Below, piece by piece: positions 41,868-63,896 of a DNA stretch of 64,000 nucleotides. This stretch comes from Protonemura montana (lineage: Eukaryota; Arthropoda; Insecta; Plecoptera; Nemouridae). Where the stretch lies: assembly GCA_947568835.1 (NCBI GenBank), contig OX387607.1, positions 5,828,001 through 5,892,000 of the forward strand. Direction: 5' to 3'. Positions within the stretch are counted from its first letter, which is position 1; each line of letters starts with the position of its first letter. The notes beneath the pieces are model-generated. The model was not told where the DNA came from. It was given only the letters and a program-made list of their open reading frames with translations, and ran no database searches. A program made the position numbers and the translations under genes.

Positions 41868-42124
41868 TGAGGCCGAAGGGCTGGGCTGCACTTGCAGTTG
41901 GCTGCATGTAGTTGGCGCTCGCCATGCGTCCTTTCACCCTCTGCCAAGGGCATCCGTCCTTTCTCCGACAAATGTGGCAAATTATTTCGCAGCGTTTTTT
42001 ACGTGCCGTCGATTTTCACGGAAACTATTGTCGCAACCTTCCGTGAGGTTAACTATAAAATGATTTGCGGCGCTGCAAATGGCATCAGTTCTCTCCAGTC
42101 GTTGACTAGATACACATTTCAGCC
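41868..42124 (+). promoter_or_regulatory. Conserved promoter block of cuticle gene 2
   Basis: About 250 bp shared almost base for base with the promoters of genes 3-6. Elements in order: GGGCTGGGCTG; CCAAGGGCATCCGTCCTTTC; a perfect 8-bp inverted repeat TCACGGAA/TTCCGTGA (42,016-42,046); TATAAAA at 42,054-42,060; and an ATCAGTT initiator at 42,084-42,090, about 31 bp downstream of the TATA box. The start codon is at 42,125. Confidence 0.9.
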
Positions 42125-43346
42125 ATGAACAGCTTGGTAAGTGAGAGTACATATTAATACTAATACAAATGCACAAATATGTTTATTACAGAAAGTAGTT
42201 GCTGTACTATATCACATCTTAAAACATACACAAAGTAATTTTAAATGTCTTGCCCTGTATTTAAAAGAAAAGGAAGTACACATATATTACCTAAATATCT
42301 TTGAGCATATGAAAAACTTATCACTACTCAAAAATATAATGTCACAGCAACATAAAAATTACCGAAGAAACTTAATTAACAACTCTTTATAGCAACCAAA
42401 AACGGATACAACTGAAAAAAATTGACTAGAATCTCGTAATCTCATAAAACTTTACCCAAGATGTCACCCACTTCTAAATACTAATCGGGTCCTATCTTTG
42501 CAGATTGTCCTCGCGTGCGTTCTCGCCGCTGCGTGCGCCAACCCCGGCAACCTCTACAACGGTCTCGGTGCCTTCGGGTACTCGGGTGCCTACGCCTCTC
42601 CCTTGGCTTACAACGGATACGCTCACGCCGCCCCTCTGGCCCTCGCTTCGGAGCCCCGTCTTGTGGACCCCGTCGCCATCGCCGCCGGAGCCCCCCTGCC
42701 CACCGGAGACACCGTTGAGGTTGCCGCCGCCAAGGCTGCCCACCTCCAGGCCCATGCCGCCGCCACCGCCAGGAACTACGGAGCCTACGCTCACGCCGCT
42801 CCCCTGGCCTACTCCGCTGGCCACTACGCTCACGCCGCTCCCCTGGCTTACAACGGATACGCTCACGCCGCTCCCCTGGCTTACAACGGATACGCTCACG
42901 CCGCTCCCCTTGCTCTTGTCTCTGAGCCTCGTCTCGTGGACCCCGTTGCCATCGCCGCCGGAGCTCCCCTGCCCACCGGAGACACCGTTGAGGTCGCCGC
43001 TGCCAAGGCTGCCCACTTCCAGGCCCATGCCATCGCCAAGTCCAACCACTTCCTGCGGTACAAGCGTGGACTTGCCGCCATCGCCTACGGAGCGCACCCC
43101 ATTGTCCACTCCGCCGTCGCCTACCCTAGCGCCAGCCACGCCGTCGCCTACAACGCCCCCTTGGTCGCCGCTCCCCACCCCGTCGCCCACCACGTGGCCT
43201 ACAGCGCGCCCATTGTCCACCACGCCGCCCCCGTGCACCACGCCGTGTACACCCCTGCTCTGAGCCACGCCACCTCCTACTCTTCCGTCAGCCAAGTGTC
43301 GCATCCCCTGACGCACTACGCCGGCGCGTACGCGCACCACTACTAA
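42125..43346 (+). CDS. Alanine-rich low-complexity cuticle protein (array gene 2)
   Basis: Exon 1 (42125-42136, MNSL) and exon 2 (42504-43346) give about 284 residues. Signal peptide [16 protein letters not shown], then [21 protein letters not shown] repeats; two copies of the module [18 protein letters not shown] / [17 protein letters not shown] with a furin-like RYKR site; and a His/Tyr/Ala-rich C-terminus ([28 protein letters not shown] end). There is no Rebers-Riddiford domain, so the protein belongs with low-complexity cuticular proteins, and chitin binding cannot be claimed. Its C-terminal repeat has one [11 protein letters not shown] unit. The loop of 3'UTR hairpin 2 (GCCGT) resembles gene 6 rather than genes 3-5. 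AATAAA lies at 43,643-43,648. Confidence 0.92.
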
Positions 43347-62580: not shown

Positions 62581-62954
62581 TTAGACTAAGAGGATAGGAA
62601 TCAAGGAAAGAATGACCAAAAATATATATTTTGTAGAATGCAGTTTTTATTGTAAAAAGTTGTGTGTTTCTTAATATGCTAAATGGAGTATTTACAAAAT
62701 GAGCATCATTTTGAAATCTATGTAAGGAATTTAATAATTTAGCAATTTTCCGAAACAAACATCGAAATTCGTCCAGCTATGAAATCCGGCGGCCAGCTCT
62801 GACGACCGGGTTGGTCGCCCAGCCTTACCCCGCTTGCAGACTTCAAAACTCTCCAGTGTTGACCATTACAAGATTTCCTCGAGTCCGGCGCCCTCGCGTA
62901 CCATGCGTCCAGCGCAGGCGCGACTAGCCCGGACTCCGCGCTGCAGTCGACCGC
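62580..62954 (-). repeat. Inverted copy of the gene 6 3' flank (3'UTR of gene 7)
   Basis: Reverse complement of roughly 60,575-60,900, including the tail near AATTTCGATGTTTGTTTCGG and the poly(A) signal (minus-strand AATAAA at 62,646-62,651). It contains the conserved stem-loop at 62,881-62,936. With gene 7 it forms the right arm of a large imperfect palindrome. Confidence 0.88.
62881..62936 (-). other. Conserved 3'UTR stem-loop of cuticle gene 7
   Basis: The same 8-bp stem and 40-nt loop as the other array genes, on the opposite strand. Confidence 0.75.
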
Positions 62955-63896
62955 TTAGTAGTGGTGCGCGTACGCGCCGGCGTAGTGCGTCAGGGGATGC
63001 GACACGTGGCTGACGGACGAGTAGGAGGTGGCGTGGCTCAGAGCAGGGGTGTACACGGCGTGGTGCACGGGGGCGGCGTGGTGAACAATGGGCGCGTTGT
63101 AGGCGACGGCGTGGTGGGCGACGGGGTAGGCGGCGGCGACCAGGGGAGCGTTGTAGGCGACGGCGTGGTGGGCGACGGGGTGGGCGGCGGCGACCAGGGG
63201 AGCGTTGTAGGCGACGGCGTGGCTGGCGCTAGGGTAGGCGATGGCGGAGTGGGCAATGGGGTGCGCTCCGTAGGCGATGGCGGCAAGTCCACGCTTGTAT
63301 CGCAGGAAGTGGTTGGACTTGGCGATGGCATGGGCCTGGAAGTGGGCAGCCTTGGCAGCGGCGACCTCAACGGTGTCTCCGGTGGGCAGGGGAGCTCCGG
63401 CGGCGATGGCAACGGGGTCCACGAGACGAGCCTCAGAGGCAAGAGCAAGGGGAGCGGCGTGAGCGTATCCGTTGTAAGCCAGGGGCGAAGCGTGAGCGTA
63501 TCCGTTGTAAGCCAGGGGGGTGGCGTGAGCGTATCCGTTGTAAGCCAGAGGGGCGGCGTGAGCGTAGTGGCCAGCGGAGTAGGCAAGGGGAGCGGCGTGA
63601 GCGTAGGCTCCGTAGTTCCTGGCGGTGGCGGCGGCATGGGCCTGGAGGTGGGCAGCCTTGGCGGCGGCAACCTCAACAGTGTCTCCGGTGGGCAGGGGAG
63701 CGCCGGCGGCGATGGCGACGGGGTCGATCTGGCGGGCCTCGGAGGCGAGGGCGATGGGTCCGTGAGCGTATCCGTTGTACGCCAGGGGAGAGGCGTAGGG
63801 GCCGGCGTAAGCACCAGAGTACCCGTAGGCACCGAGACCGTTGTAGAGGTTGCCGGGGGCGGCGCACGCAGCGGCGAGAACGCACGCGAGGACAAT
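62955..63896 (-). CDS. Alanine-rich low-complexity cuticle protein (array gene 7), inverted, exon 1 outside the window
   Basis: The second exon (313 codons plus stop) of an array member on the minus strand. It starts right after an acceptor at 63,897-63,899 with [20 protein letters not shown]. By analogy the missing first exon encodes MNSL and lies to the right of 64,000. The N-terminal region differs from genes 2-6: [20 protein letters not shown] and [13 protein letters not shown], the last as in gene 1. It has two [14 protein letters not shown] modules, several NGYAHA repeats including ATPLAYN and ASPLAYN variants, HFLRYKRGL and two 18-residue His-rich units (one AAAYPVAHH). Its 3'UTR resembles gene 6 downstream but has the AACCC hairpin loop of genes 3-5. 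Confidence 0.9.
   Translation of the reverse strand: MVLACVLAAACAAPGNLYNGLGAYGYSGAYAGPYASPLAYNGYAHGPIALASEARQIDPVAIAAGAPLPTGDTVEVAAAKAAHLQAHAAATARNYGAYAHAAPLAYSAGHYAHAAPLAYNGYAHATPLAYNGYAHASPLAYNGYAHAAPLALASEARLVDPVAIAAGAPLPTGDTVEVAAAKAAHFQAHAIAKSNHFLRYKRGLAAIAYGAHPIAHSAIAYPSASHAVAYNAPLVAAAHPVAHHAVAYNAPLVAAAYPVAHHAVAYNAPIVHHAAPVHHAVYTPALSHATSYSSVSHVSHPLTHYAGAYAHHY

Follow-up and report, generated by a model that had tools for sequence, protein, structure and literature searches.

Mosaic conservation in a tandem array of putative cuticular-protein genes points to gene conversion in two separate islands

Gene content and organization of the array

The window analysed here is a stretch of 64,000 nucleotides (bases 5828001–5892000 of contig C5), and the genome searched comprises 34 contigs (258 Mb). 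Seven related genes are arranged in the order G1 (38279–39908), then G2–G6, all on the plus strand, followed by G7, which is inverted on the minus strand. In all seven genes, coding exon 1 is only 12 nt long and is followed by a phase-0 intron (325–490 nt, or 335–490 nt among G2–G7; GC 29–35%) and a single long exon 2. The coding sequences have a GC content of 67–69% and a GC3 of 0.74–0.80. A TATAAAA motif lies at −71/−72 in all seven genes and an initiator-like TCAGT at −40 in all six array genes (i.e. G2–G7), and the N-termini of the array proteins look by eye like signal peptides. The short exon 1, phase-0 intron, TATA/initiator arrangement and predicted repeat-rich secreted product suggest that this is an arthropod cuticular-protein tandem array. 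No RNA family and no tRNA was found within the window.

In Pfam searches, the Rebers–Riddiford (R&R) domain (PF00379, Chitin_bind_4) is matched in G1 (E 1.6e-12) and in none of the six array genes, which places G2–G7 outside the CPR family as defined by this domain. The insect-cuticle type of the G1 domain suggests that the genome is that of an arthropod. DUF7210 (PF23843), with a curated cut-off of 27 bits, scores 34.4 bits in G1 and 20.9–26.9 bits in G2–G7 (E 3.4e-6 to 2.6e-4), in each case just under the cut-off. G1 contains the same repeats (16 protein letters, not shown) as the array genes. With a dS to the array of 0.57–0.79, it appears to be a linked relative that does not belong to the conversion group. 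Outside contig C5, protein similarity is highest to two genes on contig C2 (C2a and C2b; 57 and 53% identity).

The first-pass annotation placed a cuticle-gene array at 41868–63896 and noted shared parts in G2–G6. These coordinates are correct, 63896 being the first base of G7 exon 2, and G2–G6 do belong together; what was missed is that the inverted G7, which has its own intron and a diverged promoter, shares the exon-2 block. Two shared blocks, hereafter islands A and B, can be delimited. Island A (∼310 bp; promoter, 5′UTR, exon 1 and the first 20–30 nt of the intron) lies on the plus strand at 41860–42166 in G2 (where it includes the first ∼30 intron nt and has 91–94% identical blocks with G3–G6), 45515–45820 in G3, 49504–49814 in G4, 53326–53637 in G5 and 58836–59139 in G6. 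Island B (the last ∼32 nt of the intron, exon 2 and ∼165 bp of 3′UTR) was delimited by shared blocks and gene models. It occupies 42472–43511 in G2 (last 32 nt of the intron, exon 2 at 42504–43346 and 165 bp of 3′UTR), 46150–47195 in G3 (exon 2 at 46182–47030), 50142–51391 in G4 (exon 2 at 50174–51226), 53964–55375 in G5 (exon 2 at 53996–55210) and 59568–60739 in G6 (exon 2 at 59600–60574), all on the plus strand, and 62790–63927 on the minus strand in G7 (exon 2 at 63896–62955, with 165 bp of 3′UTR). Beyond island B, G6 has an extra 3′ stretch (60740–60891) that ends next to the AATAAA at +304, and its only close match is in the inverted G7 (62638–62789, minus strand).

Between the islands lie introns of different types. 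By gene model and identity, those of G3 (45792–46181), G4 (49785–50173) and G5 (53608–53995) are of one type, and those of G2 (42137–42503) and G6 (59110–59599) are each of their own type, all on the plus strand. The G7 intron is likewise of its own type. Its part inside the window is 63897–64000 (minus strand), and it continues to 64231, with exon 1 (start codon at 64243) and the diverged promoter lying beyond the window.

The spacers are duplicated in pairs, with ends that fall inside the islands: the G2–G3 spacer (43512–45510) is a tandem duplicate of the G3–G4 spacer (47196–49503), the duplicated unit running from the end of intron 2 through G3 exon 2 and being collinear with the next unit (blocks of 94, 78 and 91% identity), and the G4–G5 spacer (51392–53325) is a duplicate of the G5–G6 spacer (55376–58835, minus an inserted element; blocks of 86, 82 and 82%). 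The inserted element is a plus-strand retroelement with a reverse transcriptase domain (RVT_1, E 4.5e-30) and an (ATT)20.7 tail at 58649–58710; its approximate ends (57118–58711) come from the gap in the spacer alignment. Repeats also occur within exon 2: G4 and G5 carry 240-bp units, and a 54-bp unit is present in 2.2 copies in G4, 4.5 each in G5 and G6, and 2.8 in G7. G5 is thus itself a mosaic that combines G4-type 240-bp units with a G6-type long 54-bp array.

Identity of promoters, introns, exons and flanks

The promoter (−260 to −1) is 91–97% identical in all ten pairs of G2–G6 and 63–67% identical in the five pairs with G7. Exon 2 is 94–97% identical in all 15 pairs, including those with the inverted G7 (94–95%). 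The first 150 bp of the 3′UTR are 93–99% identical in all 15 pairs (97–99% between G7 and G3–G5). This bears out the first-pass observation that G2–G6 share a promoter/exon-1 block and an exon-2/3′UTR block. The size of the 3′ block needs revision: of the ∼200 bp of shared 3′UTR only ∼165 bp are common to all six genes, after which the genes fall into three classes. Over 3′ bases 151–300, G2–G3, G4–G5 and G6–G7 are 97, 95 and 96% identical, and the remaining 12 pairs 65–80%. Over bases 301–600, G2–G3 and G4–G5 are 95 and 84% identical, and all other pairs 57% or less. GC content falls from 62–64% to 29–35% at the +165 edge. As a candidate cause of the 3′UTR conservation, RNA structure was rejected, since the one copy folded, that of G3, gives z −1.17 and 25 of 200 shuffles fold as well.

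A largely exonic pattern, with a G6–G7 tract that ends beside a poly(A) signal, is what conversion templated by spliced transcripts (cDNA) would leave, exons being copied and introns skipped. However, the homogenised block starts >200 bp before the inferred transcription start (TCAGT at −40, TATA at −71) and takes in the intron edges, the intron is kept in seven of seven genes, and the common 3′ edge at +165 is well short of the AATAAA (+296 to +304). We therefore give this mechanism almost no credence.

Introns of G3, G4 and G5 are 88–93% identical (z 7.6–14.7 against 15 shuffles per pair). The other 12 of the 15 intron pairs are at or slightly above their shuffled controls (z −1.4 to 2.4), with the highest values for G6 against G3–G5 (2.1–2.4). 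This agrees with the first-pass view of a single intron type in G3–G5 and different ones in G2 and G6. The point at which the G2 and G6 introns part, given there as ∼30 nt, is right, if nearer to 20–30 nt, and is sharp: the first 20 bases are identical (20/20), followed by 4/10. In the 60 columns after the first 30 nt, the G6 intron is still 61–67% identical to those of G2–G5, and weak similarity to G3–G5 persists over the first ∼90 nt. Upstream of −270, a match over the full 630 bp exists only between G3 and G4 (90%); G5 and G6 match for ∼130 bp (to about −398 in G5), after which the retroelement interrupts the match, which resumes past it. Outside the islands (i.e. upstream, mid-intron and 3′ bases 301–600), G2, G4, G6 and G7 are only 34–57% identical to one another, except for 3′ edges of up to ∼150 bp.

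Alternatively, the genes could be young, with unrelated DNA having taken the place of their introns, and fast intron turnover that hardly affects the exons is described for Argiope silk genes in the available text of PMC9779670. Yet the upstream and distal downstream DNA has diverged as much as the introns, the G2–G7 introns are alike in length, those of G2 and G6 match nothing else in the genome, and the G6 intron retains the similarity to G2–G5 noted above. Replacement is thus extremely unlikely. A transposon origin of the G2 and G6 introns was considered separately and rejected: a genome search with G2 bases 42160–42480 and G6 bases 59140–59570 (the latter at E≤0.001) found only their own places, although it skipped very common words and so does not strictly exclude a highly repeated element.

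Silent-site divergence and selection

Exon-2 dS is 0.094–0.197 over all 15 pairs, and dN is 0.015–0.040. Intron K is 0.07–0.13 within G3–G5 and 0.67–1.40 elsewhere, the latter values being a floor only, as the alignments are near random. The two measures are decoupled: dS does not correlate with intron K over the 15 pairs (Spearman 0.33, p 0.24; without G7 rho −0.37, p 0.29), and mean dS is 0.125 in the three pairs of like intron type and 0.118 in the seven other pairs without G7. In the 12 pairs with unlike introns, silent-site identity exceeds that of linked neutral DNA; within G3–G5, dS is about equal to intron K. The G3–G4 dS of 0.137 is not below the intron K (0.07) or upstream K (0.11) of the same pair, and may have been raised by exon imports from other copies.

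Could the constancy of promoter, codons and 3′UTR beside drifting introns be due solely to purifying selection and codon bias? Several observations are in line with this: (i) dN is well under dS; (ii) codon bias is strong (e.g. GCC makes up 401 of 595 Ala codons); and (iii) a ∼61-bp initiator/5′UTR/exon-1 stretch has an 87% identical counterpart upstream of a paralogue on contig C2, and blocks of promoter motifs persist in G7. However, codons for the same amino acid mismatch in 7.3–12.9% of cases, three to five times less often than the 39.9–40.8% expected if they were drawn independently from the array's own usage. C2a and C2b are similarly biased (GC3 0.81 and 0.74) and have a dS to the array of 0.86–1.28 (0.30 between themselves), and that of G1 is 0.57–0.79. 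The lack of any deficit of dS in G3–G4 relative to its intron and upstream DNA also speaks against selection alone. Codon bias is thereby excluded as a sufficient cause of exon-2 identity. A point on the other side is that the terminal repeat unit of G1 is fairly close to the array (dS 0.23–0.27 over 45 codons), so part of exon 2 is either more constrained or more recently shared.

The promoter gives a similar picture. Columns of the promoter, 5′UTR and exon 1 that are changed in G7 differ in only 44 of 302 comparisons among G2, G4 and G6 (14.6%), or in 19 of 227 (8.4%) when the first 45 are omitted, compared with 46–55% in the introns of the same genes. Positions that vary in G7 are thus still near-identical in the other old genes. 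Columns shared with G7 differ in 14 of 521 comparisons, and this difference from the G7-changed columns, together with the motif blocks conserved in G7 too, indicates that selection is real. Purifying selection adds to the similarity around the initiator, 5′UTR and exon 1 and, in our reading, is not sufficient alone; that it accounts for the whole pattern is very unlikely. The first-pass annotation had left conversion in separate tracts and strong purifying selection side by side. Our results favour the former over selection alone, given the decoupled dS, the codon comparison, the outgroup paralogues and the tree conflict described below, and keep the latter as a contributor.

Tree conflict and recombination

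Eight segments of the six array genes were tested against all 105 topologies with the AU test. None of the 105 trees survives in all eight partitions, i.e. adjacent segments conflict. The best intron tree fails in all three 3′ partitions (p 0.0006, <0.0001 and <0.0001), and the 3′-flank tree fails in the partitions for intron (p 0.011), promoter (p 0.009) and upstream DNA (p <0.0001). All retained distal 3′-flank trees contain {2,3} and {4,5}, and all retained upstream trees contain {3,4}. The numbers of trees kept are 19 for the promoter, 23 for the intron, 35 for the first 165 bp of the 3′UTR, and 57 and 44 for the exon-2 halves; near-saturated segments carry little tree signal for genes outside the matching groups. 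The intron partition rejects the tree of the exon-2 3′ half (p 0.0045), but the intron tree is not rejected by either half of exon 2 (p 0.39 and 0.34), and the tree conflict therefore rests on the upstream and 3′ segments. The comparison of synonymous sites with introns that was proposed at first pass thus comes out clearly for rates, which are unequal, and more weakly for topology.

Fine-scale recombination tests within island B are mixed. Among its 36 informative sites, 331 of 630 site pairs are incompatible. Sawyer-type fragment runs give p<0.005 in four of 15 pairs and are not significant, even uncorrected, in the other 11; concordant runs survive Bonferroni correction over 15 in two pairs (G2–G7 and G3–G5). 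A PHI-type test on exon 2 plus 165 bp of 3′UTR gives p 0.039 for adjacent sites only and p 0.36–0.39 for windows of two, three and five sites. This weak signal could reflect short or old tracts, or recurrent mutation at some sites. Single-copy variants in exon 2 comprise 37 S>W and eight W>S changes. GC-biased conversion is neither supported nor excluded by them, because such counts depend on mutation in addition to fixation, and because GC3 is 0.75 in G1, which is not part of the group, against 0.74–0.80 in the array.

Proposed history of the array

We consider it very likely that four old genes were homogenised by interlocus conversion in two islands, and that two later unequal crossovers produced the hybrids G3 and G5. 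The old lineages would be G2, G4, G6 and the inverted G7; divergence is close to saturation in their introns, upstream regions and distal 3′ flanks. Conversion would act on island B among all six genes in both orientations, and on island A among the direct-orientation G2–G6. The two islands would convert separately because the intervening intron has no homology to carry a tract across. A plausible source is double-strand-break repair from neighbouring copies in the germline, in which lost homology stops the tracts, so that diverged regions stay out. Purifying selection on the protein and core promoter would in turn keep the islands similar enough for further conversion, and selection for gene dosage may be why the array persists.

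The islands may also have been where unequal crossing-over took place. G3, with its 5′ side from G4 and its 3′ side from G2, would stem from an exchange in exon 2, and G5, with the body of G4 and the upstream region of G6, from one in the promoter block; this order of duplication events is inferred from the collinear blocks. Part of the mosaic is best read as such crossing-over and not as conversion. Internal repeats in exon 2 may promote exchange, and in the available text of PMC2793513 Cornman proposed that coding-region repeats do so in Drosophila cuticle arrays.

Recent tandem duplication with unequal crossing-over only (i.e. birth and death without conversion) would explain the collinear duplicate spacers on either side of G3 and G5 and the resemblance of these two genes to crossover hybrids. 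It is nevertheless very unlikely as a full account: G2, G4, G6 and G7 differ as widely outside the islands as described above, yet have a dS of only 0.115–0.156 among themselves, and homology ends at a near-saturated intron and resumes beyond it. The homogenisation of G7 also points away from unequal exchange, because such exchange should not homogenise an inverted copy.

Within the favoured history of conversion in two islands, the promoter and the coding exon may be regarded as two separately converting loci, split by a 0.3–0.5-kb intron that has escaped, with the genes recording the order of escape; for this reading we see the chances as evenly balanced. The series would run from G3–G5 (homologous throughout) through G2 and G6 (intron escaped) and G7 (promoter escaped as well) to G1 and the C2 paralogues (escape complete or nearly so). 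If true, a block of ∼310 bp would suffice for concerted evolution of a promoter, and regulatory and coding parts would homogenise independently. More generally, if our interpretation is right, (i) one locus displays how conversion is shut off piecewise as paralogues age; (ii) a short promoter and its coding exon can be homogenised separately; (iii) the array offers a natural measure of the uninterrupted homology needed to sustain conversion in an arthropod; and (iv) gene duplications in arrays of this type cannot be dated from exon or promoter similarity.

Comparison with known systems

Localised conversion within a coding exon was reportedly described for silkmoth chorion genes in about 1991. 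Among the papers listed for such chorion conversion and for escape from conversion, nothing was closer than the cuticle papers, judged by titles and abstract openings, and none of the open-licence papers listed (mainly titles and abstract starts) described cuticle genes in which a promoter island is kept uniform on the far side of an intron that has escaped. Published work already covers concerted evolution in cuticle genes whose introns diverge, and the process itself is known.

The following comparisons draw on the available portions of the papers cited. The Drosophila 67F and 84A arrays (Cornman 2009, PMC2793513) resemble the present array in having tandem cuticle genes, a signal-peptide intron in most of them, interlocus conversion with homogenisation centred on exon 2 and, in 84A, associated coding-region repeats. 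In those arrays, the R&R domain forms the homogenised core, the genes involved are pairs and the pattern is shown across Drosophila species; here, G2–G7 have no R&R match, and homogenisation involves six copies and extends to a promoter island. In Anopheles gambiae (PMC2259329), three CPR genes (the trio of Dotson et al.) share at least 98% identity over their coding regions, although their introns and UTRs differ. That trio and the sequence clusters of this species share with our array a compact tandem arrangement, differing introns, a TATA box plus initiator, and a first coding exon with a median and modal length of 12 nt. Both UTRs differ in Anopheles, whereas the 5′UTR, promoter and about half of the 3′UTR are homogenised here.

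Drosophila Amylase (PMC3924832) likewise undergoes concerted evolution over part of a locus with independently evolving flanks, and its inverted (palindromic) copies convert; the effect is mostly limited to coding sequence, and the text available describes no promoter island. In the BEX/WEX/GASP genes (PMC1274310), concerted evolution acts on a 5′ non-coding motif separately from the coding region and chimaeric genes result, as here, but the coding regions diverge, whereas in our array homogenisation affects both parts and divergence is confined to the DNA in between. Gibbon opsin (PMC3213168) is the opposite case, with homogenised introns and distinct exons. Because the Anopheles CPR and Amylase cases are already known, the present array is not a new kind of system; what it adds to them is a separately homogenised promoter island and a graded escape series, the stages of which are unusually clear here.

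3′UTR organization

In the inverted gene G7, the closest partner changes at about +165 of the 3′UTR, from G3–G5 before this point to G6 after it. Columns 120–165 of G7 are 100% identical to those of G3–G5 and 89% identical to those of G6, while the distal stretch that follows (60740–60891 in G6 and 62638–62789 in G7) is common to G6 and G7 at 92–98% identity and reaches as far as the region of the poly(A) signal. At +165, which is the edge of the 3′ block common to the array genes G2–G7, GC content falls from 62–64% to 29–35% (G2: 43347–43511; equivalent place in G3–G7). The step is weaker (50% to 36%) in the 3′UTR of G1, the linked relative.

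Retroelements and cluster extent

A retroelement insertion, recognized by a reverse-transcriptase frame (RVT_1) and an (ATT)20.7 tail, lies in spacer G5–G6 (57118–58711). It is found in only one of the two duplicated spacers, and is therefore probably younger than their duplication. A second candidate (15724–17103) is based on reading frames that resemble reverse transcriptase by eye; a strong GC-skew dip at 16–18 kb coincides with these frames.

Sequence searching also recovered two further loci at C5:5898011–5899323, about 6–7.3 kb past the end of the window, with 64% identity to the R&R part of G1. The cuticle cluster thus extends further than G7.

Putative protein cleavage

All seven proteins G1–G7 (38279–39908; 42504–63896) contain R-Y-K-R-G shortly C-terminal to one repeat unit, which is the last unit in G2–G7 but the first of three in G1. 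Both related genes on contig C2 (C2:2979826–2980539 and C2:28359721–28360329) likewise encode R-Y-R-R-G shortly past one repeat unit. We take both forms to be a furin-type cleavage motif, which suggests that the secreted proteins of G1–G7 and the C2 paralogues may be cleaved into two parts.
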